DNA of 64,000 bases from Alphaproteobacteria bacterium (GTDB lineage: Bacteria; Pseudomonadota; Alphaproteobacteria; Elsterales; Elsteraceae), in contig RDXE01000024.1 of NCBI GenBank assembly GCA_004292755.1, positions 62,001-126,000 on the forward strand, read 5' to 3'. The notes below the pieces were generated by a model. The model saw only the letters and a list, made by a program, of their open reading frames with translations. It was not told the DNA's origin and ran no database searches. The translations under genes were made by a program, and so were the position numbers. This document shows, in pieces, positions 14,515 to 38,721 of the stretch. How positions within the stretch are numbered: position 1 is the stretch's first letter; every line of letters begins with the position of its first letter.

Positions 14515-15175
14515 GGAACGGCATCTCCGCCCTCTGCGGGGCGCCGACATGGCCAGCGCGCCCACGGGGCATGATCGAAAGAGCGCCGGCGAGGACGCCG
14601 CGCACAGACGGAGGGGACGAGACGGGGTGCCGCGCTGTCGTCATCTGGTCCCGTGCTGACCTGCCAGCGCCGCGCCACTGCCGTTGGCCGCGGCAACAAC
14701 CGCGGACCACGAGCTTGGCGGGGAGAACTGGCAGAAACCGGGCCATCGTGATCGCTGGCAACTCCCAAAGCCGGTGGCAGGGCCATCGGCGGGTAGGATA
14801 CGCAGCCATTGGCAAGCCGTTGGCTGGTAAAACTGTCAACCATCGGCAGGCCGATGGCAGGTGGTTGGGGCCCATGGCTGGACGCCCGGCCGCAGCTTCA
14901 TGGTGCGGTCAAACCCGACCGGCACCCACGTTGCCATGGCGAATGTTGTGATCATACAGACCACCCCCCCTCCTAGCCAGCAGTTTCCCAGCGGCTGGAC
15001 GGAGGGATCGAACCGCCTCAAGCAGCGCGGGGCAGGGGGCATTAATCGATAAAAAACATGCTTTTAGACGGGTATCTTAATTTTGTGCTTGAGCATTGCG
15101 AATCGCCCTGGCATGGTTTGTCCAACGGAACGGCATGGAGCCGAACCAAGGGGAGATGAGGGGAGGCATCAGGCT
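14515..15175. other. Long divergent leader region between rne and the amidase gene
   Basis: A non-coding stretch of 660 bases. The half next to rne is GC-rich and holds a three-unit tandem repeat (14770-14872) that would lie in the 5' leader of rne mRNA. The part at 15040-15105 is AT-rich (for example cgataaaaaacatgctttta) and is the likely promoter zone of the amidase gene. Long structured leaders are known for rne of E. coli, where RNase E controls its own mRNA; the same role here is an inference. No coding or tRNA gene is visible. Confidence 0.5.
14770..14872 (-). repeat. Three-unit 34-35 bp imperfect tandem repeat in the rne leader
   Basis: Each unit holds two nonamers of the form GCC(A/G)NYGGC-like separated by two or three bases, followed by NGGT. 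The nonamers start at 14770/14782, 14805/14816 and 14839/14850, so units are spaced 35 and 34 bases. In unit 3 the pair forms a perfect CCATCGGC-AG-GCCGATGG palindrome, and units 1 and 2 form imperfect hairpins. The repeat lies about 256-358 bases upstream of the rne ATG. Confidence 0.55.
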
Positions 15176-16669
15176 ATGGCCGCCCGCGCCACCATCGGGG
15201 CTCTCGTCAGAGTGGTGTGGATGTCGGTGCTGATCGCACCGTTCGTCGCACCGCCTGTCGCAGCGCAGCAGGTGTTGGCAACTGCGGTGACGGTAAGCGG
15301 CGAGCGGACACGACTGATCGCCCGGCTGAGCCAGCCGGTGGAGGAAGTGGTGCGCGCCGACGGCCGCGACGGCCTGATCATCGACTTGCCCGGTGCACGG
15401 TGGCGGTCATCCCCACCAACACCGCGGGGACTGATCGAGCGGGTGCGCGTGGAGGCTGGACGCTCGTCTGGCACCCGGCTGACCGTGGCGCTGGACAAAC
15501 CAGCCCAAGTGGTCAGCACCCATTGGCAGAAGGTTCCCGGCAGCTCGGCTGTCCGCCTGATCGTGGAGTTGGCGCCTGCCCCGGCAGAGCGTCGCGAGAC
15601 ATCCCCATCGACCGCCCGTGCGTCCAATGGGCGTACGGAAGCCGAGACACCGCCGCGGGCACACCGTGCCGCGGCGCCCCAGATACCGGCGGCGACGTCA
15701 CCACCGTCGCCACACCAGGCTGCGAGTCCTCCGCTCGCCGCCGCGTCGCCGCCGGTACCCCTGTTGCGTGGTCCAGAGCCAGCCACGCAACGCCTCCCGG
15801 CGGCGTCGGTCTCACCACCGTCGCCACACTGGGCGGTCGGTCCTCCGCCGACCGCGCCGACGCCGCCGGTCATGGCTCCATCCCCCGCTCAACGCCCGCA
15901 GCGTGCTGGACGCGAAGTTGTGGTCGCCATCCCGGCCGCTGCCCCCCGGCCCCCGCCGCGTGACAATCGGCTGGTGATCGCCCTTGATGCAGGGCATGGC
16001 GGGGTTGACCCCGGCGCGATCAGTGCCGTCACTGGCGTCTACGAGAAAACCATCACCCTAGCCGTTGCCCGCGATGTCCGTCGCGAGTTGGAGGCGTCGG
16101 GTCGCTTTCGCGTGGTGATGACCCGTGACAGTGACGTGTTCATCCGCCTGCGCGACCGGGTGCAGATTGCCCGGACAGCTGGCGCTGACTTGTTTGTTTC
16201 CATCCACGCTGACAGCCTGCAGGGCGATCAGAGGGTGTCTGGCCTGTCCGTCTACACGCTGTCGGAACAAGCCTCCGACCGTGAGGCGGAAGCCTTGGCC
16301 CAGCGCGAGAACCGCGTGGACAGCATTGGTGGCGCGGACTTGCGCGGAGCAGGGGACGAGGTGCTGTCAATCCTGATCGATCTGGCACAGCGGGAGACGC
16401 AAAACGCCTCGGCACGGTTTGCCCAGACCCTGGTGCGGCAGATGCGCGCGGCTGACATCCCCACCCTGCCGCAGCCGCACCGGTTTGCCGGCTTGGCGGT
16501 GCTGACCGCGCCGGATGTGCCCTCTGTGCTCGTGGAACTTGGCTATCTGTCCAACCGGGATGATGCGCGCAGGCTTGCCAATCCTGAACAGCGCCAGCGG
16601 CTGGCCCGCGGCATCGCCAGTTCGATTGAGCGGTTTTTCGACCCCACCACGGCGGTTGCCCGCCGATAA
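15176..16669 (+). CDS. amiC: N-acetylmuramoyl-L-alanine amidase (AmiC type) with AMIN domain
   Basis: A periplasmic peptidoglycan amidase of 497 residues, used in daughter-cell separation. It has an N-terminal signal peptide (VRVVWMSVLIAPFVAPPVAAQQ), an AMIN septal-targeting domain at about 30-130, a Pro/Ala-rich linker of about 130 residues, and a C-terminal Amidase_3 domain. The zinc and catalytic motifs are DAGHGGVDPG, EKTITLAVARDV, FVSIHADS and the glutamate of VLVELGYLSN. The linker contains two related ~20-residue units, SPPSPHQAASPPLAAASPPV and SPPSPHWAVGPPPTAPTPPV. The ATG at 15176 follows GGGGAGG with a nine-base spacer; the longer in-frame ATG at 15083 would bury the signal peptide. 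PBP1A follows on the same strand. Confidence 0.9.
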   Translation: MAARATIGALVRVVWMSVLIAPFVAPPVAAQQVLATAVTVSGERTRLIARLSQPVEEVVRADGRDGLIIDLPGARWRSSPPTPRGLIERVRVEAGRSSGTRLTVALDKPAQVVSTHWQKVPGSSAVRLIVELAPAPAERRETSPSTARASNGRTEAETPPRAHRAAAPQIPAATSPPSPHQAASPPLAAASPPVPLLRGPEPATQRLPAASVSPPSPHWAVGPPPTAPTPPVMAPSPAQRPQRAGREVVVAIPAAAPRPPPRDNRLVIALDAGHGGVDPGAISAVTGVYEKTITLAVARDVRRELEASGRFRVVMTRDSDVFIRLRDRVQIARTAGADLFVSIHADSLQGDQRVSGLSVYTLSEQASDREAEALAQRENRVDSIGGADLRGAGDEVLSILIDLAQRETQNASARFAQTLVRQMRAADIPTLPQPHRFAGLAVLTAPDVPSVLVELGYLSNRDDARRLANPEQRQRLARGIASSIERFFDPTTAVARR

Positions 16670-25658: not shown

Positions 25659-28600
25659 ATGAGAGTTCGGGGCATCACCGGCGCATTGCTGACTGCCTTT
25701 GGTGGTCTGGCGACGGTCCTCTCGGTTGCGCTGTTGTGGTTCGGCTGGCGGATCACCGAGGCCCCCTTGTCGATTCGCCCGTTGATGCCGTTGCTGCTGA
25801 GTGAGGCCGCGGGGTGGCTGCCCGGTCGGACGTTGGAAGTGGCCGATCTCGACCTAGTTTGGGATCGGGAGGACTGGGTGCTGGCGGTGCGCGCCCAGGA
25901 TGTGCGGGTGCTGGGCGGCGCTTCGCCCCTGCAACTGGGCGAGATGACCGTGGCCCTGTCGGTTGAAGCCCTGCTGCGCGGGCGCTTGGCCCCTGTCGAA
26001 GTGTCCGTCGATCATCTGCAACTGACGGTCGAGCGTACCGCGGATGGTGTGCGCGTGGTCGGCGCCACGCTTCGGGGAGCAGAGAGCAGTGAGGCACGGG
26101 CAGCACCAACGGCCGCCGACGCAGAAACAGCGCTGGAGCGCTGGCTGCAGCCGCCCGATGGTGATCCCAACGATCCCATCAGCTTTCTGCGCCGGGTTCG
26201 CCTGATCGCGCCCGAGGTGACCGTGATGGATCGGCTTGCCGGTCCAAACCGGCCAGAGCGCTGGCAGATATCCTTGCGCGAGGTCACCCTTGATCGAGAC
26301 CGCCAAGGGCTGGTGGTACAGGCCGGTGGTCGCCTGTCTGCAGGAGATCTTGGCTTTGACCTCAACGCGGCGGCGCGCTGGCGCAGTGGCGCGGATGTGG
26401 TGGACCTGGAGGTAAGCGCCCCGACAGTGGAGCCATTGCGCCTAGCTGGATTGTTCGTGCCGGAGCAACTGCCCACGTTGTCGATGCCCGTTGCGATCAC
26501 GGCGCGTGCCGCAGTCGCTCTTACGGGGGCAGTGGTTACAGCACAGGCAACGGTAAGCGCAGGCGCAGGCACTGTGGTGGACGACCGCCTGCCGCGCGGT
26601 CGCCTTTCCATCAGCACGCTGCGCATCGCCCTCGCCAAGGACGCGGATGACACAATCCGTGTGACGGAGGGGATCGTGACGTCCGAGGCCATGCGGCTTA
26701 GCCTCAGTGGGCAGGGCAGGCAGGGCCCCGATGGTCGCTATCACCTCGGCGGTGCCGCCGTGGTGGAAGGGATGGCGATGGCGGAGCTGCCTGCCTGGTG
26801 GCCAGCGATGATGGCTCCGAATCCGCGCCAGTGGATTCTTGCCAACATCACCGAGGGTACAGCGCGCCGCGCGGCGGTTGAGTTCGCCGTCAGCACCCAT
26901 GACTTCGAGGATTTTGACGTCGAGCGGTTGTCCGGGACCTTCGACTATGCCGGACTGAAGGTGACCCACCTGCCGGGACTCCTGCCAGCCGAGCAGGTGA
27001 CCGGTGTTGGCCGGTTCGATGCCAACATCATGCACCTAGACATCGCCAGCGGCGTGGTCCGCCGCTTGCGGTTGGACGAGGCACGCATCGTGATCGATGG
27101 CCTTTCGGCCCGCGATCAAACCATCGACATCCAGGTGGCAGCGCGCGGTCCTGTGGCGGAGGTGTTGAGCCTCGTTGATGCGCCGCGCTTTCGCTATGCC
27201 CAGAAGGTTGGGATCACGCCCGCAGGGTCAGCCGGGGACGTGGTGGCCCGAATGCGCTTTCAGTTCCCACTGCTGAACGCGCTCAAAATCGACGACGTCA
27301 AGCTCTCGATTGGTGGCACGGTCACTGGCCTGCGGTTGCCGCGGATCGCGCGTGGACAAGATCTGACCGACGGGCGGCTGCGGATCGATCTCGATGGCGG
27401 TGGGTTGGTCGCTAGCGGGACGGCAAGCCTAGCGGGCATTGCCAGCCGGTTTGACTGGGTGGAGATGTTCAATGACCGCGCCCCGTTCCGCCGCCGGTTT
27501 GAGGTGCAGGCCAGCCTGTCGGACGCCGACCGCCGTCGGCTCGATCTGGGCCTGGATGACGTGGTCCGCGGCGCCGTGCCGATTGACGTTGAGTTGATCG
27601 AGTATGATGGCGGTCGCGCCCAGCTGCTGCTGCGGGCTGATCTCACTGCTGCACAGATGGCGATCGAACCGCTGTTGTGGAGCAAACCCGCAGGCATCAC
27701 TGCCTCCGCTTCAGCAGAGGCGATGGTGCAGGGCGGTCGGTTGGCATCGCTGCCTGGGTTTCGGCTGGATGGCGGCGGGCTGGTTGCGGCTGGCTCCGCC
27801 ACGGCAGACCGCGATGGCAATCTCACGCGTATCGATATCGCCCGGCTGCGTCTTGGTGAAAGCGATGCGCGCGTGCAGATTGACCGCAGTCAAGCGGTTC
27901 CCGTGATCACCATTGATGCCCGCCGGTTCGACCTATCGCCGTGGCGGGATGATCCATCGCCGCCCGCGCCGCCGGGTCAGGGGCCCAGCTTGCGGTTGGT
28001 GTTGCGCACCCCAGAGGTCTTGATCGGCAAAGGTGCACCGGCTCTGCCACTTGATGCTGCCGTCACCTTGGATCGTGGACGCTGGCGTGAGGCGCGGTTG
28101 ACCCTTGGCTCTGGTGGCAACGCATTGCAAATGCAGATCACGCCCACGCCCACGCGGCGGCGCCTTTCGCTCACGGCGTCTGATGCTGGGTTGGCTCTCA
28201 TGCTGTTGGGTCAAGGCGAGGCTGCATCCGGAGGGGTCTTGAAGCTCGACGGAGTGTTTGATGACAGCAACCCCGCCTCGCCGCTGGACGGCACGCTGTC
28301 CATTTCAGCTTTGCAGATCCGCCGCGCACCTGCGCTGTTGCAGTTGCTGCAGCTGGCCTCAGTGACCGGTATCCCTGAGTTTTTGAGCGGGGGAGGGATC
28401 GCCTTTGACCGCGTTGAAGCCAGCTTCCGCCGGGTTGGCGAACGGCTGGAGGTGAGTGAGGCGGTGCTGGCCGGGGCATCGTTGGGGATCAGCTTTGAAG
28501 GCACGATCGACGGCCCCGAGAGCCGGGCGCAGTTGACCGGCGTGCTGCGCCCGTTCAATGCGGTCAATCGCTTGATCGGTGCCATCCCCCTCTTGGGCCA

Positions 28601-28793
28601 GGTGTTGACCGATGGGGGCCGCGGCGGCATCGGCGCGTTCAACTTTTCAGTGTCGGGACCTTTGGATGAGCCATCGGTCTCCGTCAATCCGCTGTCGGCG
28701 CTGGCACCGGGCCCGCTGCGTCGGCTGTTTGAGGCAGCTGATCCAAGCCGCCCGCCGCAACCGCGCACCTTGCCCTCCAGCGACGATCGCTAG
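25659..28793 (+). CDS. YhdP-like AsmA-domain envelope protein
   Basis: A large inner-membrane-anchored periplasmic protein of 1044 residues. One N-terminal membrane segment (ITGALLTAFGGLATVLSVAL) is followed by DUF3971-type beta-rich repeats. The C-terminal AsmA-like region contains LQLASVTGIPEFLSGGGIAF, then GTIDGPESRAQLTGVLRPF and IPLLGQVLTDGG. This is the pattern of the YhdP/TamB/YdbH group, which forms bridges for phospholipid movement to the outer membrane in E. coli. ATG 25659 follows GGAG with a nine-base spacer. It is divergent from glnE and convergent with the methyltransferase gene. Confidence 0.82.
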   Translation: MRVRGITGALLTAFGGLATVLSVALLWFGWRITEAPLSIRPLMPLLLSEAAGWLPGRTLEVADLDLVWDREDWVLAVRAQDVRVLGGASPLQLGEMTVALSVEALLRGRLAPVEVSVDHLQLTVERTADGVRVVGATLRGAESSEARAAPTAADAETALERWLQPPDGDPNDPISFLRRVRLIAPEVTVMDRLAGPNRPERWQISLREVTLDRDRQGLVVQAGGRLSAGDLGFDLNAAARWRSGADVVDLEVSAPTVEPLRLAGLFVPEQLPTLSMPVAITARAAVALTGAVVTAQATVSAGAGTVVDDRLPRGRLSISTLRIALAKDADDTIRVTEGIVTSEAMRLSLSGQGRQGPDGRYHLGGAAVVEGMAMAELPAWWPAMMAPNPRQWILANITEGTARRAAVEFAVSTHDFEDFDVERLSGTFDYAGLKVTHLPGLLPAEQVTGVGRFDANIMHLDIASGVVRRLRLDEARIVIDGLSARDQTIDIQVAARGPVAEVLSLVDAPRFRYAQKVGITPAGSAGDVVARMRFQFPLLNALKIDDVKLSIGGTVTGLRLPRIARGQDLTDGRLRIDLDGGGLVASGTASLAGIASRFDWVEMFNDRAPFRRRFEVQASLSDADRRRLDLGLDDVVRGAVPIDVELIEYDGGRAQLLLRADLTAAQMAIEPLLWSKPAGITASASAEAMVQGGRLASLPGFRLDGGGLVAAGSATADRDGNLTRIDIARLRLGESDARVQIDRSQAVPVITIDARRFDLSPWRDDPSPPAPPGQGPSLRLVLRTPEVLIGKGAPALPLDAAVTLDRGRWREARLTLGSGGNALQMQITPTPTRRRLSLTASDAGLALMLLGQGEAASGGVLKLDGVFDDSNPASPLDGTLSISALQIRRAPALLQLLQLASVTGIPEFLSGGGIAFDRVEASFRRVGERLEVSEAVLAGASLGISFEGTIDGPESRAQLTGVLRPFNAVNRLIGAIPLLGQVLTDGGRGGIGAFNFSVSGPLDEPSVSVNPLSALAPGPLRRLFEAADPSRPPQPRTLPSSDDR

Positions 28794-28799
28794 ACCAAG

Positions 28800-28827
28800 G
28801 CGCGGTCAGGGCGGTGCCTAACCGCGC
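28800..28827. terminator. Hairpin between converging genes
   Basis: GCGCGGT (28800-28806) and ACCGCGC (28821-28827) form a perfect 7-bp stem in the 43-base gap between the yhdP-like gene and the oppositely oriented methyltransferase gene. The 14-base loop has a smaller internal stem. No T tract is present in either direction, so it is a candidate bidirectional stop only. Confidence 0.4.
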
Positions 28828-28836
28828 GAGCCGGGT

Positions 28837-29673
28837 CTAGTCGCCGATGATCGCGTAGCTGATCCGTGGCTCGAACGGGAAGCGACGGATACGCAAGCCG
28901 TTGAGGGAGCCGAAGTGCTCCAGCGCCGCGATGGTCTCGCCGGGGAAGGCCTCTTCATTCAACTCATCAAAGGCGACGATGCCGCCCTTTGGCACGCGCG
29001 GCAGGAACAGCTCCAGCGCGCGCTTGGTTGGCGCATAAATGTCAAAGTCCAGATACAGCAGGCTGACCACCAAGTGGGGGTAGTCTTCCAAGAACTTCGG
29101 CGCGGTTTCCATAAAGTCCCCCTTCACAAGGTGGACTTTCGGGAAGTGATTGAGGAAGCGGCTGATATCAAACAAGCCGACGGCTTGTTGCAAATCCTCG
29201 TAGGCATCGCCCGCGTGGAAGCCACCCTCTTTCAAGTGCGCGGACTTACGCTCCGGTCGACCACGCAGGTCAGCCTCGTGGATCGACGGGAAGCCTTCGA
29301 AGCTGTCAAAGCCGATCACACGGCGCTGGAAGTTGTAGGGCTCCAAGATCGCGGAGATCTTGGCCCAACTCATCAGGCCGCCGCCAAACAGCACGCCGCA
29401 TTCCACAATCGAGCCCTGAATCTGCTCAACCATTTTGAACAATTCATAGCGGACCAGAAAGCGGGCAAGATTCTGACGCGGCACGTACTTGGCGAAGTTT
29501 TCCAACTTCTCCGTCGCCGAGCCTGGGCTGCGTTCAAAATACTCTTCCAGCGCAGTGCGACTGGCATAATCAAACCCGGCTTGAGTGCGCGGGTCGTGCA
29601 TGGTGGGGGAGATATCAGCCACGCCGGTGTCCGGCGTGGCTGCGGTGACCTCAGGTGCCTTGGGCTCAGGCAT
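28837..29673 (-). CDS. TylF/macrocin O-methyltransferase-family SAM-dependent methyltransferase
   Basis: A class I methyltransferase of about 278 residues resembling TylF/MycF sugar O-methyltransferases. Key segments are IQGSIVECGVLFGGGLMSWA (SAM-binding region), RRVIGFDSFEGFPSIHEAD (acidic residue at the end of strand 2), a VHLVKGDFMET segment, SLLYLDFDIYAPTKRALELF (metal-binding aspartates) and GGIVAFDELNEEAFPGET. The ATG at 29673 follows AAAGGAA with a seven-base spacer and overlaps the oxygenase gene by eight bases. It is the last gene of the flagellar transcript flgI...flgL. A target in flagellin, hook proteins or their glycans is an inference from position. Confidence 0.8.
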   Translation of the reverse strand: MPEPKAPEVTAATPDTGVADISPTMHDPRTQAGFDYASRTALEEYFERSPGSATEKLENFAKYVPRQNLARFLVRYELFKMVEQIQGSIVECGVLFGGGLMSWAKISAILEPYNFQRRVIGFDSFEGFPSIHEADLRGRPERKSAHLKEGGFHAGDAYEDLQQAVGLFDISRFLNHFPKVHLVKGDFMETAPKFLEDYPHLVVSLLYLDFDIYAPTKRALELFLPRVPKGGIVAFDELNEEAFPGETIAALEHFGSLNGLRIRRFPFEPRISYAIIGD

Positions 29674-30562
29674 CCACCAGTTCCTTTGTCGAAGTCGATG
29701 TGGCCACCACGCCATCCGGCAGGGGTGACAGATCCTTCATCGACAGGAAATCGCCCAAAGTGCTGCCAGTGGAGCGGCAATCCACATTTGGTGCACCGCT
29801 GCCATTGGTCAAATCAGCCAAGGAAACGGTGCGGAAGTCCATGCTGAACCGGGTCTTGCCGCTATCGTTCGGGCAAGTTGCATGCAGGTGAGCGGCTGAA
29901 AACATCAGCAGATCGCCCGAGGTTCCTGCGATGCGGAACTCGGATGCACCAGATGCCTCTTCCATCGGCACTGGATGCTTGCGCGTGTCAACTGTCGTCT
30001 GTTGCATGGCAGCTGTCCGCCCAAAGGCACACCACTCGCCATAATCAAACTCAGCGGAGTTGTTGAGAATTGGGCGATCCCAATACTCCCCAAGGAACGC
30101 CATGGCGCGCCGCGGCACCACATCCATCACCGGCATCCACCAGTTGATCTGGGCATGTGGTGACGAATACCAAGTGTCCCGATGCATCTTGTAGGCATAG
30201 GACACGCCCGCGGCCAGATAGCCGTCGGACGGCACAACGCGCAGACGCGGCACATCGAACCAAGTGTCGTCCGGATCGCAGCCGTATTCGGCCAACACCG
30301 CCCGCACCAAGTCTTTGGTGCGCTGACCGTTGGTGAATTCCTTCTTCAGCGGCCCGACGATTTCGATGAACCGCGGCACCTCCAGGTGGTACTGCGCGGT
30401 TTCCGGATCCAGCGGGTGGAAGGCCGCGCGCACCATGTCGGCTGCGTGCTGAGCAAGCGCCTTGCTGGCGGGCGAGGCCCCGTAAACCAGCAGTTCGCCC
30501 GAGAAGAGCTGTGTCCGGCGCTGCGCATCGCTGAGCGCGTGGTTCATGTAGATGCCGACCAT
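29666..30562 (-). CDS. Phytanoyl-CoA dioxygenase-like 2-oxoglutarate/Fe(II) oxygenase
   Basis: A 298-residue protein with the jelly-roll oxygenase signature: the iron-binding HxD in YKMHRDTWYSSPHAQINWWM, a distal histidine in MFSAAHLHATCPND, and the arginine of KTRFSMDFRTVS that would hold 2-oxoglutarate. It most resembles the PhyH family, whose members hydroxylate small molecules, lipids or glycan-linked groups. It starts 31 bases after the end of flgL on the same strand and overlaps the methyltransferase gene. The gene pair looks like a tailoring unit added to the late flagellar operon. Substrate unknown. Confidence 0.72.
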   Translation of the reverse strand: MVGIYMNHALSDAQRRTQLFSGELLVYGASPASKALAQHAADMVRAAFHPLDPETAQYHLEVPRFIEIVGPLKKEFTNGQRTKDLVRAVLAEYGCDPDDTWFDVPRLRVVPSDGYLAAGVSYAYKMHRDTWYSSPHAQINWWMPVMDVVPRRAMAFLGEYWDRPILNNSAEFDYGEWCAFGRTAAMQQTTVDTRKHPVPMEEASGASEFRIAGTSGDLLMFSAAHLHATCPNDSGKTRFSMDFRTVSLADLTNGSGAPNVDCRSTGSTLGDFLSMKDLSPLPDGVVATSTSTKELVDA

Positions 30563-30593
30563 GGGATTTCCTCGCTGTCGCTAGCCCCCGCGG

Positions 30594-33500
30594 CTAAAGA
30601 TAGTTCACCAAGCTGAGATTGCGTATCTGCGAAATCGCCGCGTAAGAGGCTTCAATGGTGGTCTGCAAGGATTGCAGCTTGGCCACCGTCTCAGCAGGAT
30701 CAGCCGTGAGAATCTGATCCTCAGTGTTCTTCGCCAGCGAGATGGTTGTTTGGTGGAACTTGCGCGCGTCTTTCAACTGAAGCTGGTCGAAGGCGACGTT
30801 GGAGCGCAGCGTGTCCAAACCAGTGATTGACTGGTCGATCAACGTGAGTGCCGCGCTAAGGTCTGCGGTTGACAAGGGAACGCCCTGATCGCGGGCGTAT
30901 CGCAGGACGCGGACCAACTGCTCAAATGCTGGTTCGTCGGCACGCACGCCAATCGCCACCAACTGGTCATCGGCCACTCGGACGGCAATATCGGTCGCGC
31001 GCTTGTCATCCTGATTAGTGCCAGCCAAGTAATAGGTCGGGTCGGTCAGGGTTTGGGCCAGGGTTGGAACTGTCGGTGGGTTGCCAGCGCCCAGAGTACC
31101 AAACGGCTGGTCGCCCGATGCCACCAGCGAGGTAGAGGACGCACTCACGCTGAAACTGTTCTGCGTGAATTCCAACTGCGGGTTCAGAGTTGCGCCTGTA
31201 ATCGCAATGCCGCCAACGGGAGGACGCAGCACAATCGGGCGCCCAGCCGTGCCTTGAGCGTCGGCTGGATTGATGATGCCATTGGCATAGGTGATGCCGC
31301 CTGCAGTGGTAGTGCCGCCAGTGCGAGTGCCCAGTTGCTGCGGTGCCGCCAGCAATTCGGTGCCACTTGCATCCTTGGCCGAGACTAGGTAGGCGCGCCA
31401 TCCGAGTGTCGGCGGGGCACCGCTATTCTCATACTGAACCCGGATCAACGCGTTGAGGCGCCGCCCTGTCGAGTCGGTGATGGCATTCTGGCCAGTCAGG
31501 CTGATGTCATACCGATTGTTTTGCGGCGGCAGTGGCAATTGAATGGTCGGTGGTACGGCCTCAGCACCCACACCAGTGACCGCAGTCGGAGCGTTGTTGA
31601 AGTTGCCCGCCAACCGCACGGTCTGCGCCGTGCTGGCAAGCGTGTTTGCGGGCATCGTGGTGTTCTCTGCCCGCATCGCCGTGTTGGCTGTAATGTTGGC
31701 GTTTGCGAGCGCACCAGCTGGCACCTGAAGAGAGGTGCTGATGGTGTTGGCGTTGCGCAGGGTTGGCGCGAACGGCCCAATCGACGTCGCAGTGGTTGGA
31801 TCGAACAACCCGCCAATCGCCACGGGCGACGCTGCTGAAATCGCCGGTGTCGTAGACGCCTCTCCGTTCGACTGCTGGGTCATGGAGATGGCGTAGGCGC
31901 GCCATGTGGCGCCTGCACCTGCCTGCTCCTTCACGAACCGGATGGTGAGGTTGTGCCCCTTCAACCCAGAGTCCAGCAGGGCTTCCGATCCAGAGTAGGT
32001 AATGTCGACAAAGCTACCCGGAGTAGGGGCAGAGACCGACGTGTTGACCGGCGCGGCGGGGTCAAACCGTCCGCCCAGACGGATCGACTGGGTCCCCAAC
32101 GTCGCGGGGGGCACGGTGACCGACGTGAACTGCTGCGGGCTGGTTGCACTGCCAGTTGGCGAACCCACCTGCATGCCGAAGGCACCGGTCGGAATTGTGA
32201 ACGAGCCGGCGACCACGGCACCCGTAGCGCCCGTGCCATCGATGCCGGCGCCTGTGGTGTTCACGGTGATCGCGCCAGCAACGTTGGCGCCGCCCGCAGT
32301 GCCGTAAACCGTCGCCACTGGGATCGGCAACGGCGTGGTCGCAGCATTGGCTCCCGTGGCAGCGTTCGTCACGCTCACAATTTCGGAGCGCCACACATCG
32401 AACGGAATGTTGGCAGTGCCAGCCGGATAGGTTGCGTCAACCGCTGCTTGATTAACCTCAAGACCGGTGAAAAACGGGTCGGCCCACGCAAGTGATGCGT
32501 CCAGCGCACTCGGCGGCGAGATGTTGCCGTCGATCATCCGATTGCGGATCACGCCCAACGCATTGGTCACCAAGGAGCGAGCCTGCTCGCCTGGGTTCCC
32601 AGCCGTCAGTTCCTTGGTGAACCGCACCTGGAGCTGGAGACGACGGCCTTGGTCGTCATAGACATCGTTGACGGTTTGAGTGATCTGCGTGCCGACACCG
32701 GCCAGGGTGTCCAGGGCGCCGGTCATGGTGATCCGCGATGTTGCGGTCACGGCGGTTTGCGTCTGGATCAAGTTCGTGCCAGTGGCGGAACTGATCGCCG
32801 CACCGCCCGGCCCCTGGCCCTGAATGTTCAGGACCAGATTGCCAGCAGACGGGAGGGTAACGCCCGCCGCGTTCAAGTCCAGCCCTGTCGCCAAGTTGCC
32901 GGCGGCTGGGTTGGAAGCGTTGAACAGCGCCGGTGTCGCCAAGATTGGATTGTCGGCACTGATCGTGCCGTTGGCATTGGTGGCTTTCGAGCCGTCGGAC
33001 GCGCGCGTCACATCGGTGATGTACAGCCGCCAATCATTGGTGCCCGTATTCGCCTCACGCACATACCGCACGGAGACGTTGTAGGCCGTCCCGGTGCTGT
33101 CGAACACCGTGTTGACCTGGGCGTCAAGAAAGCTCCCCGGCGTCGGCGAGCCCGCCCGCTGCGTGTTCGCTGTCGCACCGGTCAGGTTGGCCGTCAGACC
33201 AAGGGATGTGGTGGGCAGCCGTGGCACGGTGGTCGCTTGCTGAATCGGCTGGTCATAATAGCGCGATCCGGACAGCACATAGCGACCACTACCGTCCTTG
33301 GTATTCATCAAGGATTCCAGCGCGGCCAGATAGCCATTCGCCTGCCCGGCAAAATTCGGCACACCGCCGTTACTGCCTTGCTGCACCAGCGTCTTGCGCA
33401 CGTCCTGCGCCAGATTGCGCGCACTGGATAGCACCGTGTCGGTCAAGGTGAGGCGGGTGGTCGCATCATCAATCGTGCTGGTGTATCCTTCCGCATTGCT

Positions 33501-33671
33501 GCGCAAAGCATTGACGTTCAGCAGACTTTGCGTGCCAGTGGCAATGGTATCAAAGGTCGGCCCTTTGGTCTTGGTGCTAAGCTGGTATTGGAGATCAGCC
33601 AGCGACACATTGTTGTTCCGGATTTGGAACAGCGTCCGCTGCTGGTTCGTGAAATCGGAGATGCGCGACAT
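30594..33671 (-). CDS. flgL: Flagellar hook-filament junction protein FlgL, giant form with FlgE-D2-like repeats
   Basis: The ends are ordinary FlgL/flagellin-like helices: 1-150 begins MSRISDFTNQQRTLFQIRNN and includes SGSRYYDQPIQQ, and 880-1025 contains LIDQSITGLDTLRSNVAFDQ and ends ISQIRNLSLVNYL. Between them sits a Thr/Ala/Gly/Pro-rich insert of more than 700 residues, giving 1025 residues against roughly 300 to 400 usually. The insert repeats a hook-protein D2-like module: a TVRLAGNF-type strand, then D-S-x-G, a strand such as LNALIRVQYE and a W-R-A-Y strand. Copies are near 183-222, 330-365, 525-600 and 678-772. It is downstream of flgK by 25 bases. A surface-exposed enlarged junction protein is the likely outcome. 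Confidence 0.88.
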   Translation of the reverse strand: MSRISDFTNQQRTLFQIRNNNVSLADLQYQLSTKTKGPTFDTIATGTQSLLNVNALRSNAEGYTSTIDDATTRLTLTDTVLSSARNLAQDVRKTLVQQGSNGGVPNFAGQANGYLAALESLMNTKDGSGRYVLSGSRYYDQPIQQATTVPRLPTTSLGLTANLTGATANTQRAGSPTPGSFLDAQVNTVFDSTGTAYNVSVRYVREANTGTNDWRLYITDVTRASDGSKATNANGTISADNPILATPALFNASNPAAGNLATGLDLNAAGVTLPSAGNLVLNIQGQGPGGAAISSATGTNLIQTQTAVTATSRITMTGALDTLAGVGTQITQTVNDVYDDQGRRLQLQVRFTKELTAGNPGEQARSLVTNALGVIRNRMIDGNISPPSALDASLAWADPFFTGLEVNQAAVDATYPAGTANIPFDVWRSEIVSVTNAATGANAATTPLPIPVATVYGTAGGANVAGAITVNTTGAGIDGTGATGAVVAGSFTIPTGAFGMQVGSPTGSATSPQQFTSVTVPPATLGTQSIRLGGRFDPAAPVNTSVSAPTPGSFVDITYSGSEALLDSGLKGHNLTIRFVKEQAGAGATWRAYAISMTQQSNGEASTTPAISAASPVAIGGLFDPTTATSIGPFAPTLRNANTISTSLQVPAGALANANITANTAMRAENTTMPANTLASTAQTVRLAGNFNNAPTAVTGVGAEAVPPTIQLPLPPQNNRYDISLTGQNAITDSTGRRLNALIRVQYENSGAPPTLGWRAYLVSAKDASGTELLAAPQQLGTRTGGTTTAGGITYANGIINPADAQGTAGRPIVLRPPVGGIAITGATLNPQLEFTQNSFSVSASSTSLVASGDQPFGTLGAGNPPTVPTLAQTLTDPTYYLAGTNQDDKRATDIAVRVADDQLVAIGVRADEPAFEQLVRVLRYARDQGVPLSTADLSAALTLIDQSITGLDTLRSNVAFDQLQLKDARKFHQTTISLAKNTEDQILTADPAETVAKLQSLQTTIEASYAAISQIRNLSLVNYL

Positions 33672-33695
33672 GGCGACTGATCCCTAGTCCGGCGG

Positions 33696-35639
33696 TCAGC
33701 GGGCAACGTTCAGCAAGGCGTCGAACATGGTCGATGTGGTTTCCAGCACCTTCGCCGAAGCGATATAGGCCTTCTGAAACGTTACCATGTTCGACAGTTC
33801 TTCATCGACGCTGACACCATCAATGGCGGCAGCCTTGCGATTGAGCTCGGCCACGTATTGTTCCTGGTAGCCCGCCGCCGATTTGGCCTGCGCCGCATTG
33901 TTGGCAGCGCTGGACATCATCGCTGAGGCGTAGGATTGCAGGGAATAGCGGCCACTCGACAGAGTGGCGCCAAAGCTGCTGTATGGTGCGGAGGCCGTGT
34001 CGATCTGCGTGCCTGGATTGAACGCGTCCGCAAGCCGCTGCGCCACCGACGGTACCCGATCCCCATCGATCCTGAGACGCCCGGCGCTGCCGCCGCGGTT
34101 CGGATCAAAGAATTGATTGACCGAGATGGAGCGACTGAAATCCACCGTCGTGTCATAGGGGTTGGCGGTGCCGTCGAACTGGAACAAGCGATAGGTGCGG
34201 CTGTCCATCCACGCTGAGGAGGCGCGGGTCGCACCCGAAATCTCCGTCAGCAAGCGGGTTTCCGGCTGCTGGAAGGCCAGGGTGGTCGGCGGGGAGGAGC
34301 CGTGCTGCAAGATCATAGCACCGATTGCCGGTGGCGAGGCGCCTCCGACCGTGATGGTGCCCAAATTGATTGGGTTGGCAGGCGTGATGGTTCCCGTCGC
34401 CGCTGGGGTACCAGCGCCGTTGGGGTTGACCGTCGCAGCCGAGCCATCGCTGGCGCGCACCAAGCTGGTCAAAGTTGCTGCCACGGTTGGCGGGGAAACA
34501 CCGGCCGCACTGGTTTTGGTGAAGGTCAGCTGCGCCCGGTAGGCAACGCCTTCGCTGTCATACAGGACGTAGTTGTTGTCCAGCAGATTGCCCGTCAAAT
34601 TGCCGAGGTTATAGGTGGTGCCGACGGCATCATCCCGGTTGATCTGCCCGGCAAAGGCCAGCCGCATGGTCGGTGGCGCGGCGCCAGTGCCCTCAGCGAC
34701 TGAAGTCGCCACTGCGGGAGGTGCCCAGGCCAAGTCATAGAGCGCGCGGCTCATCGTGTTGAGTTGACGTGTCACATCCGCCAACTCGCGATCACGCAGA
34801 TCGCGCAAGCCCTGCAGTTTGCCGGTTGAGATTTCCTGCGTGATGTCCAAGCGCTCATTGCCCAGCAAGATCGGCTGGAATGTGGTCTCGCCCGCAACGG
34901 TCCCAGCAGGGCGGTAGGACAAGAACTGAGCGACACCATCCACCAGCACGCGACCGCGCTGGCTGTAGACCACCATTTCGCCACTGTCGCGCACAAAGGT
35001 CTGAATGCCCATCTGCTCCGACAATTGGGAGACCGCAAGGTCACGCTGGTCCGCCAGTTCGGCCGTGGACTGGCCCAAGGCAAAGGCACGGGTGATCTGG
35101 CGGTTCAGGCTTTCGATTTTGCGCAGCGCGTCATTGGCCAGATCGACCGATTGCTTGATGTCTTGATCCACGTTGGTGCGCAATTGCTGCACACCCGTGG
35201 ACAGACGGCGAATGTTGGTCGCCAGCGTCTGCGCAGCATTCACCGCATTGCCCTGCGTTCCCGACTGTTCGGGGTTGCTGGCCAGCGCGTTCAAAGCCTT
35301 CGACAAATCATTCACAGCAGTGTTCAGGAAGCCGCCAGTCGACGGCGACCCCAACAAATCCTGCAAGCGCTGCTGGTAGTTAGAGCGGATGTCGGTAGAG
35401 CCCTGGGTTGAGCCTTCGCGCCGAATGTCCCGGCGCAAGAACTCATCAACCTTACGCACCACGACTTCGGTTTGCACACCGCTGCCAACCGCGTTGTACA
35501 CCCGATTGGACAGCGGTGTGGTCTTGCGGGTGTAGCCGACAGTCTGCGCGTTGGTGACGTTGTTGGAGATTGTCGCCAGCGTTGATTCCGCGGCGCGCAA
35601 CCCCGACAGCGCATTGTTCAAGGACAACGTCAGAGTCAT
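33696..35639 (-). CDS. flgK: Flagellar hook-associated protein 1, FlgK
   Basis: First hook-filament junction protein, 647 residues. The N-terminal rod/hook signature SLNNALSGLRAAESTLATIS-NNVTNAQTVGYTRK and the C-terminal helix ELSNMVTFQKAYIASAKVLE-TTSTMFDALL are canonical. In the middle, residues about 323-400 contain TMRLAFAGQI, VLYDSEGVAYRAQLTFTKT and TLTSLVRASDGSAATVNPN. This is the same FlgE-D2-like module repeated in the neighbouring FlgL, where ITDVTRASDGSKATNANG is nearly identical. The ribosome site AGGAG lies nine bases before the ATG, and two strong hairpins precede it. Confidence 0.94.
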   Translation of the reverse strand: MTLTLSLNNALSGLRAAESTLATISNNVTNAQTVGYTRKTTPLSNRVYNAVGSGVQTEVVVRKVDEFLRRDIRREGSTQGSTDIRSNYQQRLQDLLGSPSTGGFLNTAVNDLSKALNALASNPEQSGTQGNAVNAAQTLATNIRRLSTGVQQLRTNVDQDIKQSVDLANDALRKIESLNRQITRAFALGQSTAELADQRDLAVSQLSEQMGIQTFVRDSGEMVVYSQRGRVLVDGVAQFLSYRPAGTVAGETTFQPILLGNERLDITQEISTGKLQGLRDLRDRELADVTRQLNTMSRALYDLAWAPPAVATSVAEGTGAAPPTMRLAFAGQINRDDAVGTTYNLGNLTGNLLDNNYVLYDSEGVAYRAQLTFTKTSAAGVSPPTVAATLTSLVRASDGSAATVNPNGAGTPAATGTITPANPINLGTITVGGASPPAIGAMILQHGSSPPTTLAFQQPETRLLTEISGATRASSAWMDSRTYRLFQFDGTANPYDTTVDFSRSISVNQFFDPNRGGSAGRLRIDGDRVPSVAQRLADAFNPGTQIDTASAPYSSFGATLSSGRYSLQSYASAMMSSAANNAAQAKSAAGYQEQYVAELNRKAAAIDGVSVDEELSNMVTFQKAYIASAKVLETTSTMFDALLNVAR

Positions 35640-35660
35640 GGTCTACAGCTCCTGGCCGAC

Positions 35661-35707
35661 CCGGTGCTGGGCACCGGTACTCTTTCGACACCGGCGCTGG
35701 GCGCCGG
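35661..35707 (-). promoter_or_regulatory. Twin hairpins in the flgN-flgK intergenic leader
   Basis: Two perfect 7-bp hairpins with the same three-base loop stand 13 bases apart: CCGGTGC-TGG-GCACCGG (35661-35677) and CCGGCGC-TGG-GCGCCGG (35691-35707), as read on the plus strand. On the mRNA they sit between the upstream gene's stop and the flgK ribosome site at 35649-35653. There is no U tract, so protection or attenuation of the transcript is more likely than plain termination. Confidence 0.55.
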
Positions 35708-35715
35708 CACCCCTG

Positions 35716-36429
35716 CTACAGCACATCATTGACCTTCTGTGCGCCCGACCCCGTCTGCTTCGGCTGGGTGGTCACACCGAAGGCGGAATAGCGCGCCTCA
35801 GGCTCCGCACGGGTGTCAGAGACCGCGCGCACCACGGCCCGGATCAACCGGTCGGTGGAGCGCAGGGCCGCGCGCAAGGCCTGCTCATTGGCAATTGCGG
35901 CATCATTCATCGCCGTCACCGCCGCCTTCAGATCTTCGAGATCCTCGGCTGCATACTCCGACCCATCATCCAGCACACGGGGATCATGAGCGATCAGCAT
36001 GGCGGTTTGGCGCACGGCGGCCGACAGCCGCTCCTTCTCTTCCTGCAGCCCGCCGATCCCTGCAACGTCCCCGGCATCAATCAAGTCGATCTCATCCCAC
36101 AACAGTGTGGTCAGCCGATCCACCAGCTGGATGTAGTCGGGCACATCAATCGGCTCAGGCGCAGGCGTCTGGGTCTCCACAACTGCTGGACCGCCATCGG
36201 CGTACCCCAGCGGTGCTGTGCCGTCGTCATACCCAGGGGTTGGAGCGGCAGCTGCAACCTCGGCGTACTCCGCCTCTTCGTAGCCAGCTTCGTCGTAGCC
36301 AGCTTCGTCCCACTCCTCTTCGCCCTCCCACGCCTCGGCTTCCTCGGCGTAGAGGGTCTCTTCATCATACACCTCGCCCTCGACAGTGGCGGGCAGGGTT
36401 TGTGGTGCGGGAACGGGCAGCCGACTCAT
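35716..36429 (-). CDS. FlgN-like flagellar export chaperone with acidic N-terminal extension
   Basis: A 237-residue protein directly upstream of flgK. Residues about 98-205 form the helical FlgN-like part, starting DYIQLVDRLTTLLWDEIDLI, with LQEEKERLSAAVRQTAMLI and IANEQALRAALRSTDRLIRA. FlgN proteins bind FlgK and FlgL before export, which fits the gene order. The first ~90 residues are unusual: strongly acidic and tyrosine-rich with a short repeat (YDEAGYDEAGYEEAEYAE), then Pro/Gly-rich sequence. Its ATG overlaps the flgJ-like stop (ATGA). The name rests on pattern and position, as FlgN diverges widely. Confidence 0.62.
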   Translation of the reverse strand: MSRLPVPAPQTLPATVEGEVYDEETLYAEEAEAWEGEEEWDEAGYDEAGYEEAEYAEVAAAAPTPGYDDGTAPLGYADGGPAVVETQTPAPEPIDVPDYIQLVDRLTTLLWDEIDLIDAGDVAGIGGLQEEKERLSAAVRQTAMLIAHDPRVLDDGSEYAAEDLEDLKAAVTAMNDAAIANEQALRAALRSTDRLIRAVVRAVSDTRAEPEARYSAFGVTTQPKQTGSGAQKVNDVL

Positions 36430-36776
36430 GACGACACCTCCTGGTGACGCAGCATCTGCGCCTTGACGTGCTGAGCAATGCCAAGACCGCCATTCTTGGC
36501 GATCTGCTTGGCGTATTCATCGACCAGCATGGATTGGAACATGCTCTCGCCGTGGCCGCCGCCAAACGGGCCTTCGCCCAGCTTCAACTCGGCGAACATC
36601 GGCTGCAACATGGCGGACAAGAACATCGCCTCGAATTCCTTGGCGGCTTTGTCCACCTGAGCTTCGGTTGGCTTTGGCCCAGAGGTAAGGCTGCGCATAC
36701 GAGCGGCGCGCGCCTGGTCTTGAGCAACCTCACCCTGCTGGGCGATACCGCTCACACCCGGAGTGGCAGTCGTCAT
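36426..36776 (-). CDS. flgJ: FlgJ-type rod-binding protein
   Basis: A 116-residue protein equal to the N-terminal rod-binding domain of FlgJ, without the C-terminal muramidase domain, as is normal in alphaproteobacteria. The conserved core is AAKEFEAMFLSAMLQPMFAE, then GHGESMFQSMLVDEYAKQIA and GGLGIAQHVKAQML. It caps rod assembly. The ATG at 36776 overlaps the flgI stop by one base (TGATG); the GTG one codon earlier is less likely. Confidence 0.88.
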   Translation of the reverse strand: MTTATPGVSGIAQQGEVAQDQARAARMRSLTSGPKPTEAQVDKAAKEFEAMFLSAMLQPMFAELKLGEGPFGGGHGESMFQSMLVDEYAKQIAKNGGLGIAQHVKAQMLRHQEVSS

Positions 36777-38089
36777 CACAGCACCTCGATTTCAGCTTGC
36801 AGGGCGCCAGAGGCCTTGATGGTCTGCAGGATCGTGATCAAGTCGCGCGGGCCAACACCCAGGGCGTTCAACCCATTGACCAATTCACCCAGGGTGACGC
36901 CTGCCGGAACCACTGCCAAGCGCCGACCAGCCTGATCATCCACTTCGATCTGGGTACGCGGCACCACGACAGTTTGAGCACCACCGCCCAATTGCCCAGG
37001 CACGGCCTGCTCCACGAACTCAATGCGCGGCTGACCAGTCGCTGGGTCAATGATCGGCTGGCCGGTGGATGGATCCGTCACCGTCCGCGGCACCCGTACG
37101 GTCTGACCGGGCAGGCCGGTGGCACCGGGGGCGAAGGGGGCTGGCTGGGAGACCTGCGGGGTTTCAGTAACGCGGATGGTCAAATTACCCTGGGCGACAG
37201 CAACGGTGGAGATGCGCACATTCTCACCCATCACAATCACGCCATTGGTCTCATCAATCACCACGCGGGCAACTTGATCGGGCTCGATTGGCAGCCGCTC
37301 AATATCCGTCAGAAGACCGACGACATCGCCACGGTAGTTGCCGGGCACCTGCACCTGGACGGTCTTGGGGTCCAGCGCGCGGGCGACCGCCTGACCGGCA
37401 AACGCGTTGATCGCTTGGGAGATGCGCCGCGCCGTGGTCAAATCTGGGTTGCGCAACGCCAGCTTGATGGTGTCCAGCGAGGCCAGCTCAAAGCCGGTCT
37501 CCCGTTCAACAATGCCGCCATTGGCAATGCGACCGTTGGTCGGCACGCCGCGGGTGACCGTGGCTGCCTGACCCTGGGCGCGGAATCCACCGACGGCGAT
37601 CTGGCCTTGGGCGACGGCATAAACTTCCCCATCGGCACCGAGCAGCGGGGTCACAAGCAAGGTTCCGCCCAGCAGGGAGTTGGCATCGGCCATTGCCGAG
37701 ACTTGCACATCAATCCTGCTGCCCTGGCGGGCGAAGGGCGGCAGGGTTGCCGTGACCATCACAGCTGCGATGTTGCGGGTTCGCAGGTCGTTGTTGGCGG
37801 TGCGGGCGTTGACGCCCAGCCGCTCCAACATGCCCAGCAGCGATTCCCGGGTAAAGATCGAACGGTTCAGCGAATCGCCCGATCCACTCAGGCCAACCAC
37901 CAAACCATAGCCCACCAACATGTTGTCACGGACACCTTCAAATTCGACGATGTCCTTGATCCGTGTGGTCTGGGCCAGAGTTGGTACGGTGGCCATCACC
38001 CCCAGCATCGCTACCAGTGCCGCAACAATGGTGCGGGCGGCGCAGGTGCGACCGAGACGGGTGGGGCGGGGGCGGCAAAGGTCGGTCAT
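36776..38089 (-). CDS. flgI: Flagellar P-ring protein FlgI, with an extended loop
   Basis: Periplasmic P-ring subunit, 437 residues including a signal peptide (TIVAALVAMLGVMATVPTLA). Typical FlgI segments are RIKDIVEFEGVRDNMLVGYG, GTLLVTPLLGADGEVYAVAQ and IGRLPI-like IERLPIEPDQVARVVIDE, ending with TLGELVNGLNALGVGPRDLI. It is longer than usual: between VSQPAPFAPG and VVVPRTQIEVDD an extra ~50 residues contain a near copy of the edge (TVRVPRTVTDPSTG) and a DPSTGQPIIDPATGQP repeat. ATG 38089 is chosen because it opens the signal peptide; earlier in-frame codons extend into the fliX side. It heads the operon flgI-flgJ-flgN-flgK-flgL. Confidence 0.92.
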   Translation of the reverse strand: MTDLCRPRPTRLGRTCAARTIVAALVAMLGVMATVPTLAQTTRIKDIVEFEGVRDNMLVGYGLVVGLSGSGDSLNRSIFTRESLLGMLERLGVNARTANNDLRTRNIAAVMVTATLPPFARQGSRIDVQVSAMADANSLLGGTLLVTPLLGADGEVYAVAQGQIAVGGFRAQGQAATVTRGVPTNGRIANGGIVERETGFELASLDTIKLALRNPDLTTARRISQAINAFAGQAVARALDPKTVQVQVPGNYRGDVVGLLTDIERLPIEPDQVARVVIDETNGVIVMGENVRISTVAVAQGNLTIRVTETPQVSQPAPFAPGATGLPGQTVRVPRTVTDPSTGQPIIDPATGQPRIEFVEQAVPGQLGGGAQTVVVPRTQIEVDDQAGRRLAVVPAGVTLGELVNGLNALGVGPRDLITILQTIKASGALQAEIEVL

Positions 38090-38123
38090 CGGGTCAGTCC
38101 AATGCTGGTGCTCGCGCTGCTGT

Positions 38124-38140
38124 AAGCGAAGCGCATGCCA
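38124..38140 (-). promoter_or_regulatory. Sigma-54-like promoter for the flgI operon
   Basis: On the minus strand TGGCAT-N5-TCGCTT matches the -24/-12 consensus TGGCAC-N5-TTGC with the invariant GG and GC ten bases apart. Transcription would start about 24 bases before the flgI ATG. Late flagellar genes of Caulobacter are sigma-54 dependent, which supports the call. Confidence 0.5.
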
Positions 38141-38277
38141 CAGGTAAAAATCAAGAAAAATCAGCGGCATGGCGTTTTTCGCTAAGATTCTTTGTGATGA
38201 TTCGGCGGGCAAAGGCTGCCGGGTCGGCAGTTTTTGCCTCTGGTGCGCTTCGGCGCGAAATCGGGTATGAAACAGGC

Positions 38278-38721
38278 ATGAAGGTTGAAGGTCCTCGCAC
38301 ACCCCGACCCACCACCACCACTGGCTCCCGCCCGGTCACCGCGGCTGGCTTGAGTGGGGAGTTTGCCCGCGTCCTCGGTGCAGCGCCGCAACCGACGGGA
38401 ACGCCTGCCACACCGGTGCGCACGGTCAGTGCAGCCGAGGCGCTGTTTGCCATTCAGGAAGTGGGCGACGCGACTGAGCGCTCCCGCCGTGCCCGGCGCC
38501 GCGCCCATGAGGTGCTGGACCGGCTGCAAGCCCTGCATCGTGGCCTGATTGAAGGTCGGCTTGGGCTGGGCGAGATTCAGGACCTGATTCGCGTGGTTGC
38601 CAGTGAGCGCGACCAGGTGGATGACCCCGCTTTGGCCGCTCTGCTGGATGAAATTGACTTAAGAGCACAGGTTGAGGTGGCAAAGCTGGAAACGGCCCTT
38701 CAAGAGTCGCGCGAATCCTAG
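38278..38721 (+). CDS. fliX: Flagellar assembly regulator FliX
   Basis: A 147-residue protein of the alphaproteobacterial FliX family, which in Caulobacter links completion of the early flagellum to late gene expression through FlbD. The start MKVEGPRTPRP, the middle VSAAEALFAIQEVGDATERS and the end LDEIDLRAQVEVAKLETAL match the family. It is transcribed away from flgI, as in Caulobacter. The reading frame is open further upstream across the promoter, but ATG 38278 gives the usual N-terminus. The first ~45 residues are Pro/Thr-rich and probably disordered. Confidence 0.85.
   Translation: MKVEGPRTPRPTTTTGSRPVTAAGLSGEFARVLGAAPQPTGTPATPVRTVSAAEALFAIQEVGDATERSRRARRRAHEVLDRLQALHRGLIEGRLGLGEIQDLIRVVASERDQVDDPALAALLDEIDLRAQVEVAKLETALQESRES

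Follow-up and report, generated by a model that had tools for sequence, protein, structure and literature searches.

The two genes that follow flgL in the window (the whole stretch of 64,000 nucleotides analysed here) are, with strong support from gene neighbourhoods, the tail of a nine-family pathway for a CDP-activated sugar, whose other seven families lie in the same genome behind a second flagellar gene, flaF. One of the two genes encodes a predicted 2-oxoglutarate/Fe(II) oxygenase of the PhyH fold (hereafter OX) and the other a TylF-family methyltransferase (MT). We consider it likely that these enzymes are the last, tailoring members of the pathway and that the pathway serves the flagellum in this genus; the flagellum of this bacterium is probably coated with a branched, methylated sugar. 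The facts that are new here are the presence of the seven missing families at flaF, the existence of a nine-family parent cluster in other bacteria, and a flgL-linked cluster of related genes in another family of the class.

In the window, the genes concerned are arranged on the minus strand in the order flgI-flgJ-(FlgN-like)-flgK-flgL-OX-MT, and MT converges with a plus-strand gene located 43 bases away:

36776..38302, minus strand, flgI (FlgI 447.4 bits)
36426..36779, minus strand, flgJ-type rod-binding gene (Rod-binding 53.4 bits)
35716..36429, minus strand, FlgN-like chaperone gene (FlgN 23.7 bits, under the cut-off of 30.5)
33696..35639, minus strand, flgK (FlgK_D1 131.5 bits)
30594..33671, minus strand, flgL, 1025 aa, directly upstream of OX (Flagellin_C 34.9 bits, FlgE_D2 34.9 bits; Pfam Flagellin_N 21.1 bits, under the cut-off of 26.6)
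29666..30562, minus strand, OX, PhyH-fold 2-oxoglutarate/Fe(II) oxygenase, 298 aa (fold model, iron ligands)
28837..29673, minus strand, MT, TylF-family sugar O-methyltransferase, 278 aa (Pfam TylF, CalS11 homology)
25659-28793, plus strand, YhdP/AsmA-like gene

The coordinates agree with the first-pass annotation of this DNA, which had placed the two genes after flgL on the same strand, with a gap of 31 bases and a mutual overlap of 8 bases; the overlap applies when MT starts at the ATG at 29673, an alternative in-frame ATG at 29715 giving a 50-base overlap and a protein of 292 aa. A separate promoter for OX-MT, named there as a point against a functional link, was not detected: a scan of positions 28700-30800 returned 0 sigma-70-like promoters and 0 terminators, which is weak evidence for a single transcript, as shuffled sequence gives 0.5 and 1.6, respectively. 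A second genome of the same genus (G001, the source genome of the window being G000) has this gene order as well, flgK-flgL-OX-MT-><-YhdP, read there across two contigs that both end within OX, the gene being split by the contig break. The two genomes share 88% identity in MT, 71% and 74% in OX and 73% in FlgL, and the dN/dS values are 0.08/1.38 for MT and 0.24/0.70 and 0.20/1.69 for OX; with dN lower than dS, both genes are under selection at the protein level. Base composition gives no clear signal of recent transfer (GC 60.4% in OX and 59.0% in MT, with 61.5% in flgL, 61.2% in flgK and 63.9% in the window; GC3 is in range), and no tandem repeats were found in 28000-36000. FlgL measures 1025 aa in the window and 307, 355 and 574 aa in three compared genomes, and the unusually long FlgL of this genus could itself be a glycan acceptor.

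The initial designation of OX as a PhyH-type oxygenase holds at the level of the fold and fails at that of the Pfam family. Pfam PhyH (PF05721, cut-off 22 bits) gave no row for OX at E<=1, and a whole-genome search with PF05721 found seven other places, OX not being among them. OX has a weak match to Pfam 2OG-FeII_Oxy_5 (19.6 bits, cut-off 27), reaches 25 bits against a cut-off of 150 for TIGR04324 (sporadic carbohydrate cluster 2OG oxygenase), and gave no match in a sequence search of the PDB. Its AlphaFold2 model (pLDDT 91, pTM 0.90, 44 sequences) is similar to PtlH (Z 16.1, rmsd 3.5, 222 aligned), PHYHD1 (Z 14.1, rmsd 4.2, 224 aligned) and human PHYH (Z 13.0, rmsd 4.5, 219 aligned), with EvdO2 (Z 13.4) and the epimerase SnoN (Z 13.1) as further fold matches and a proline hydroxylase among the Foldseek matches. 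The substrates of SnoN and EvdO2 are sugar moieties of antibiotics. PhyH-fold oxygenases are characterized by an HxD...H iron triad and a downstream 2OG-binding arginine, and H127, D129, H227 and R238 of OX are invariant in all 44 aligned sequences. The fold together with the conserved iron- and 2OG-binding residues therefore suggests that OX works like a PhyH-fold oxygenase, though it stands outside Pfam PhyH. No second OX was found in the source genome at E<=0.001.

The TylF label of MT holds by its Pfam model (PF05711; 49.8 bits, cut-off 23). The closest solved relative of MT is CalS11, a TDP-rhamnose 3'-O-methyltransferase (E 3.1e-38 over MT residues 42-277), the second-best being a mycinamicin methyltransferase (E 1.2e-4); the solved homologues comprise CalS11, mycinamicin III 3''-O-methyltransferase and NovP. 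From its sequence, MT is predicted to methylate a sugar hydroxyl in a SAM-dependent manner. According to the available text of PMC4760980, CalS11 methylates its sugar at the sugar-nucleotide stage (TDP-rhamnose) and has Asp191 as a putative catalytic residue. D211 of MT (position counted on the alignment) corresponds to this Asp191 and is present in 7 of 9 aligned MT rows, being replaced by Ser in L129 and by Cys in L130. CalS11 differs from MT in that its pathway, as that text presents it, yields an antibiotic, uses a TDP sugar and is not linked to flagella, whereas the predicted substrate of MT is a CDP-linked C-methyl sugar. There is no second strong copy of MT in the source genome, the next match having E 9e-5.

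The parent arrangement of the two genes is best seen in Caenimonas sp. SL110 (L177), which has an unbroken one-strand row rfbF-rfbG-rmlC-CMT-EPI-MT2-cmcI-OX-MT, where CMT denotes a 3-C-methyltransferase, EPI an NAD-dependent epimerase/reductase and MT2 a second methyltransferase. Arenimonas oryziterrae (L176) exhibits the same one-strand row, except that cmcI and OX are separated by a Polysacc_synt flippase gene (59.5 bits); a flippase of this family occurs in the clusters of both species. An Omnitrophota MAG carries a shorter version, rfbF-rfbG-CMT-OX-MT-rmlC (L180), and a Sericytochromatia MAG one that is shorter still, OX-MT-rmlC (L179). In the source genome of the window all nine families are present but divided: OX-MT stands after flgL, and the other seven stand after flaF on contig C48, which was located by a search for the C-methyltransferase family and bears the following one-strand row:

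flaF (Pfam FlaF 77 bits)
PhyH-like gene beside flaF (22.7 bits, cut-off 22)
frame of 101 aa
rfbF, glucose-1-phosphate cytidylyltransferase (TIGR02623 438 bits, cut-off 300; PDB E 6.7e-115)
rfbG, CDP-glucose 4,6-dehydratase (TIGR02622 403 bits, cut-off 278; PDB E 7.6e-90)
3-C-methyltransferase, CMT (PDB D-mycarose 3-C-methyltransferase, E 1.8e-82)
RmlC-like 3,5-epimerase (185 bits)
NAD-dependent epimerase
second methyltransferase, MT2
CmcI/rhamnosyl-O-methyltransferase-like gene (236 bits)

For three of the C48 proteins the identity to the query relatives is low: 30% for the epimerase, 36% for MT2 and 43% for the CmcI-like protein. The same row is present in G001, with flaF 81% identical.

A flgL-linked version of the cluster also exists outside the family of the window. 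Genome G311, from another family of the same class, has the one-strand row flgK-flgL-rfbF-rfbG-CMT-rmlC-MT-cmcI running to the contig end, with an MT homologue at 46-49% identity; G311 is not among the class genomes with an OX match. Two complementary parts of a pathway standing behind flagellar genes and kept in two species, together with the G311 cluster, would be unlikely without selection for flagellar co-expression. In G005, a member of the window's family, the region downstream of flgL holds genes for an acetyltransferase, an opposite-strand frame, a cytidylyltransferase/aminotransferase, PseG (203 bits, cut-off 153.6) and NeuB. The differing sugar genes after flgL in G000, G311 and G005 show that the site behind flgL receives sugar genes of several kinds. 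In P. aeruginosa a glycosylation island lies between flgL and fliC. A flgL-fliD cluster of P. syringae and P. aeruginosa is also named in a figure legend on glycosylation genes in the available part of PMC3927599.

Matches to OX occur in 8 of 60 genomes (the source genome and its relatives). Within the window's family they are confined to the two genomes of the genus, the other seven genomes, some of them incomplete, having no match; 26 of 385 genomes of the class (own included) have one, the best other being 39% identical. The 18 class loci with wider context have, by eye, sarcosine/DMSP-type, phosphofructokinase, AsmA-like and other neighbours. None of the 21 distant loci (these 18 plus 3 from the phylum) has a match to a flagellar query, and the notion of OX as a general flagellar enzyme was thus rejected; L072 among them carries CMT and RfbF, and L136 carries MT. 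Relatives closer than these come from outside the class: a contig scan with the OX sequence alone found none, and one with the OX alignment found 261 loci. Among the best 80 of these 261 loci, matches to CMT were found at 60, to RfbF at 61, to RmlC at 44 and to RfbG at 15, these counts being lower bounds as some loci are short. At least two of CMT, RfbF and RfbG occur at 56 of the best 80, compared with 1 of the 21 distant loci, and neighbour clustering run independently placed at least two of the four commonest families at 57 of the best 80. OX of the window's kind is therefore apparently, for the most part, a sugar-cluster enzyme. AsmA-like proteins also seemed, by eye, to be encoded near OX at L059 and L061, but the idea of tying OX to its YhdP/AsmA-like neighbour was dropped, this neighbour not being among the commonest at the best 80 of the 261 loci.

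The OX-MT pair itself, on the same strand, recurs in Arenimonas oryziterrae (OX 61% and MT 72% identical), Caenimonas sp. SL110 (59% and 73%), the Sericytochromatia MAG (48% and 71%) and the Omnitrophota MAG (48% and 66%). It is also found in G499 of the same phylum (42% and 43%), while a Pseudonocardiales MAG has an MT-like gene (31%) ahead of OX and Nonomuraea a weak one (25%). In the class, a PhyH-type oxygenase is encoded within 0.5 kb of the MT homologue at 8 of 39 loci (41 places minus the window and minus one of two places that share a locus in G155), where 0.17 would be expected given how many PhyH genes those genomes hold. Query proteins came from three of the eight, and excluding them leaves 5 of 36. 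All eight of these oxygenases pass Pfam PhyH (42-79 bits), unlike OX, suggesting that the pairing has arisen more than once; the oxygenase at L172 scores 69 bits. In the OX tree, the window groups with Arenimonas and Caenimonas (support 100/76), and five labelled pair-bearers stand outside a 76-row group (99/83) without forming one clade (2 changes, with shuffles as low in 92 of 500); G499, an unlabelled pair-bearer, is likewise outside that group, on a long branch. A single origin of the OX-MT pairing is not supported by this placement.

A survey for co-occurrence with flgKL had been recommended at first pass. Beyond the order kept in G001, it yielded 0 flagellar-query matches at the best 80 of 261 OX loci, for which flanks of up to 8 kb were covered in both directions, and a FlgL/flagellin-family match within 9 kb of MT at 2 of 39 class loci; the latter figure is not significant against about 0.8 expected if each genome is crudely taken to hold three flagellin-family sites, so a general enrichment of MT near flagellar genes is unsupported. 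NeuB lies within 9 kb of MT at 11 of the 39 loci (the NeuB query having been taken from one of these), which points to glycan clusters in general. Flagellin matches were absent from three of the four other pair-bearing genomes searched (Arenimonas, Caenimonas and Omnitrophota), their completeness not being given and one being a 1.5-Mb MAG. The pair was thus not invented for the flagellum, and its enzymes are not specific to that organelle.

As for the possible acceptor, a flagellin gene of the source genome, on contig C2, is flanked by genes for three proteins combining TPR with Glyco_transf_41 (970-1034 aa), the locus continuing with a CapE-like dehydratase, an RmlD-like reductase and fliK; Ser and Thr make up 33.5% of the middle part of this flagellin. 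Similar proteins surround a flagellin in G001 (by eye), and a second flagellin gene of the source genome lies on contig C35. Sugar-nucleotide genes are thus linked to flagellar genes at three places in this genome: at flgL, at flaF and at a flagellin gene. The CapE-like and RmlD-like genes raise another possibility, namely that flagellin bears a sugar made by these, in place of or along with the C-methyl sugar. NeuB (PF03102) has 0 matches in G000 (99.9% complete) and G001 (88%) and is present in G005 and G007; a pseudaminic-acid route is thereby rejected for these two genomes, and the sugar must be other than a nonulosonic acid. A comparable system is that of Caulobacter crescentus, where the TPR-glycosyltransferase FlmG glycosylates flagellin in the cytoplasm (available text of PMC7591256). 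The candidates of G000 would likewise join an activated sugar to flagellin by a cytoplasmic TPR-glycosyltransferase, but FlmG as described there uses pseudaminic acid and has 596 aa, whereas the enzymes of G000 match Glyco_transf_41 and are longer, and neither genome of the genus has a NeuB match.

A pathway can be drawn on these grounds. RfbF and RfbG would build CDP-6-deoxy-4-keto-glucose, CMT would add a methyl branch at C3, and the product would then undergo 3,5-epimerisation and a reduction or epimerisation, followed by further methyl transfers. OX would hydroxylate a sugar carbon, perhaps that of the methyl branch or C6, and MT would methylate a hydroxyl while the sugar is still nucleotide-linked, in the manner of CalS11; hydroxylation followed by methyl capping is the simplest chemistry for the two enzymes. 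The TPR/GT41 glycosyltransferases would then link the sugar to Ser/Thr residues of flagellin in the cytoplasm, a role that FlmG fulfils with another sugar, and having part of the pathway on the flgL transcript and part on that of flaF would coordinate sugar supply with filament building. The flagellar target of the sugar is probable, whereas its delivery to flagellin, the individual reactions and their order are what we infer from gene content and homology. We hence offer only tentatively, as somewhat short of an even chance, the full picture of a flagellar glycan of a new kind, a CDP-derived 3-C-methyl-branched 6-deoxyhexose that is hydroxylated by OX before being O-methylated and is the product of a nine-enzyme pathway that stems from a mobile polysaccharide cluster and was split between flgL and flaF so as to match sugar supply with filament assembly.

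The sugar might instead be flagellar as proposed, with OX catalysing another reaction typical of PhyH-fold enzymes, i.e. removing an O-methyl group, epimerising, desaturating or closing a ring. We regard this as a serious possibility, though one we would bet against. PHYHD1 and its relatives demethylate 2'-O-methylnucleosides (available text of PMC12709175), which makes demethylation by OX a live rival, SnoN and EvdO2 are among its fold matches, and OX usually acts without this MT, as 76 of the best 80 of 261 OX loci have no MT match at >=66% identity. The recurrent pairing of MT with PhyH-type oxygenases nevertheless suits hydroxylation before methylation. It is rather unlikely, in our view, that LPS or a secreted polysaccharide is the destination of the sugar and that the positions of OX-MT after flgL and of the other genes after flaF are accidental. 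The pair-bearers with no flagellin match must send the sugar elsewhere, and the window's genome could do so too; the flippase in the Caenimonas and Arenimonas clusters fits this explanation, as does a 12-kb contig of G002, from the same family, with an rfbF/CMT/rfbG/cmcI cluster and no match to the FlgL, FlgK, FlgI, FlgJ and FlgN queries. It is opposed by the conservation of both flagellum-linked arrangements in two species and by the cluster behind flgL in G311.

The first-pass annotation had envisaged modification of either a flagellar glycan or an exported flagellar protein. The glycan is favoured by the presence of both genes in sugar-nucleotide clusters, and the exported protein has found no support. 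Hydroxylation or methylation of side chains of flagellin, FlgL or the hook would agree with the operon position and with the proline hydroxylase among the Foldseek matches of OX, but we give it very little credence, as the best solved relatives of MT are sugar methyltransferases and OX and MT both reside in sugar clusters elsewhere.

The same annotation knew of no described pathway of this composition. This was too broad, for such gene clusters do exist in polysaccharide-type loci, and it holds to the extent that none was linked to flagella among the literature matches listed. No open-licence paper was found that joins phytanoyl-CoA dioxygenase to flagellin glycosylation or to O-antigen/polysaccharide methyltransferases, and a search of open-licence literature for flagellin with C-methyltransferase and cytidylyltransferase returned, in the text available, only a Listeria biocide transcriptome. 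Pathways for CDP- or TDP-linked 3-C-methyl-deoxysugars are familiar from LPS or antibiotics. An example of such a sugar is virenose of Coxiella (available text of PMC3539893). The source genome shares RfbF, RfbG and the 3-C-methyltransferase with these pathways (mycarose/TcaB9-type) and departs from them in that OX and MT are added to the pathway and its genes are distributed over two flagellar loci. The viosamine island of P. syringae offers a parallel in an O-methylated sugar of a flagellin glycan: glycopeptide ions of flagellin from a vioM mutant are 14 smaller, which was read as a missing methyl. It differs in employing dTDP-viosamine, and its seven-gene table contains no C-methyltransferase or 2OG oxygenase (available text of PMC3927599, for all these points).

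Nonulosonic acids and viosamine/rhamnose chains are among the flagellin sugars encountered in the literature, as far as the accessible texts go. If confirmed, a deoxyhexose that is C-branched, hydroxylated and methylated would add a chemical class to them, and it would demonstrate the capture of a polysaccharide-tailoring module and its division between flagellar transcripts. The OX-MT pair, known from Pseudomonadota, an Omnitrophota MAG and a Sericytochromatia MAG, also provides a handle on an unassigned family of 2OG oxygenases; among the best 80 of the 261 loci, Nostoc, Nitrospira, Acidobacteriota and actinomycetes have members of this family in their sugar clusters.

The predicted route to a CDP-linked 3-C-methyl-6-deoxyhexose, which includes the PhyH-fold oxygenase gene behind flgL (OX), may hold two oxygenases, because a PhyH-type oxygenase gene lies between flaF and rfbF in both the window's genome and a second species of the genus (44% identity between the two):

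L265 (window's genome) 14848-15648, PhyH-type oxygenase gene, 22.7 bits (cut-off 22)
L266 (second species) 3400-4206, PhyH-type oxygenase gene, 28.5 bits (cut-off 22)

Another candidate member of the OX-linked carbohydrate pathway is a DUF4910/DUF2172/HTH_47 family; of the OX loci surveyed (the best 80 of 261), 50 encode such a protein:

L181 (an OX-type locus) 6520-7980, DUF4910/DUF2172/HTH_47 protein

Convergent to the sugar operon lies a large gene whose product gave no Pfam match at E<=0.01, and the end of which is also present in the second species (54%):

L265 1456-4131, 891-aa protein

One flagellin locus of the window's genome appears FlmG-like in its layout, with putative TPR-glycosyltransferases at the flagellin gene, but differs in its predicted sugar, as a genome-wide search for NeuB returned no match:

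L164 2510-13313, three long TPR+Glyco_transf_41 proteins around one flagellin gene

FlgL is about 1025 aa long in the window's genus (the comparison with the second species took in 1018 codons), whereas in three genomes used for comparison its length is 307, 355 and 574 aa. The protein would present a large surface domain where hook and filament meet, and it is a possible glycan acceptor:

30594-33671 of the window, flgL product with a FlgE_D2-like stretch (Pfam)

Among the distant relatives of OX are proteins with a Nif11 domain at the N-terminus:

L073 7215-8393, 26.7 bits (cut-off 23.8)
L074 7406-8572, 25.7 bits (cut-off 23.8)

The former, as read by eye, adjoins an apparent C39-type peptidase/ABC exporter, which suggests a link to a RiPP-like system.
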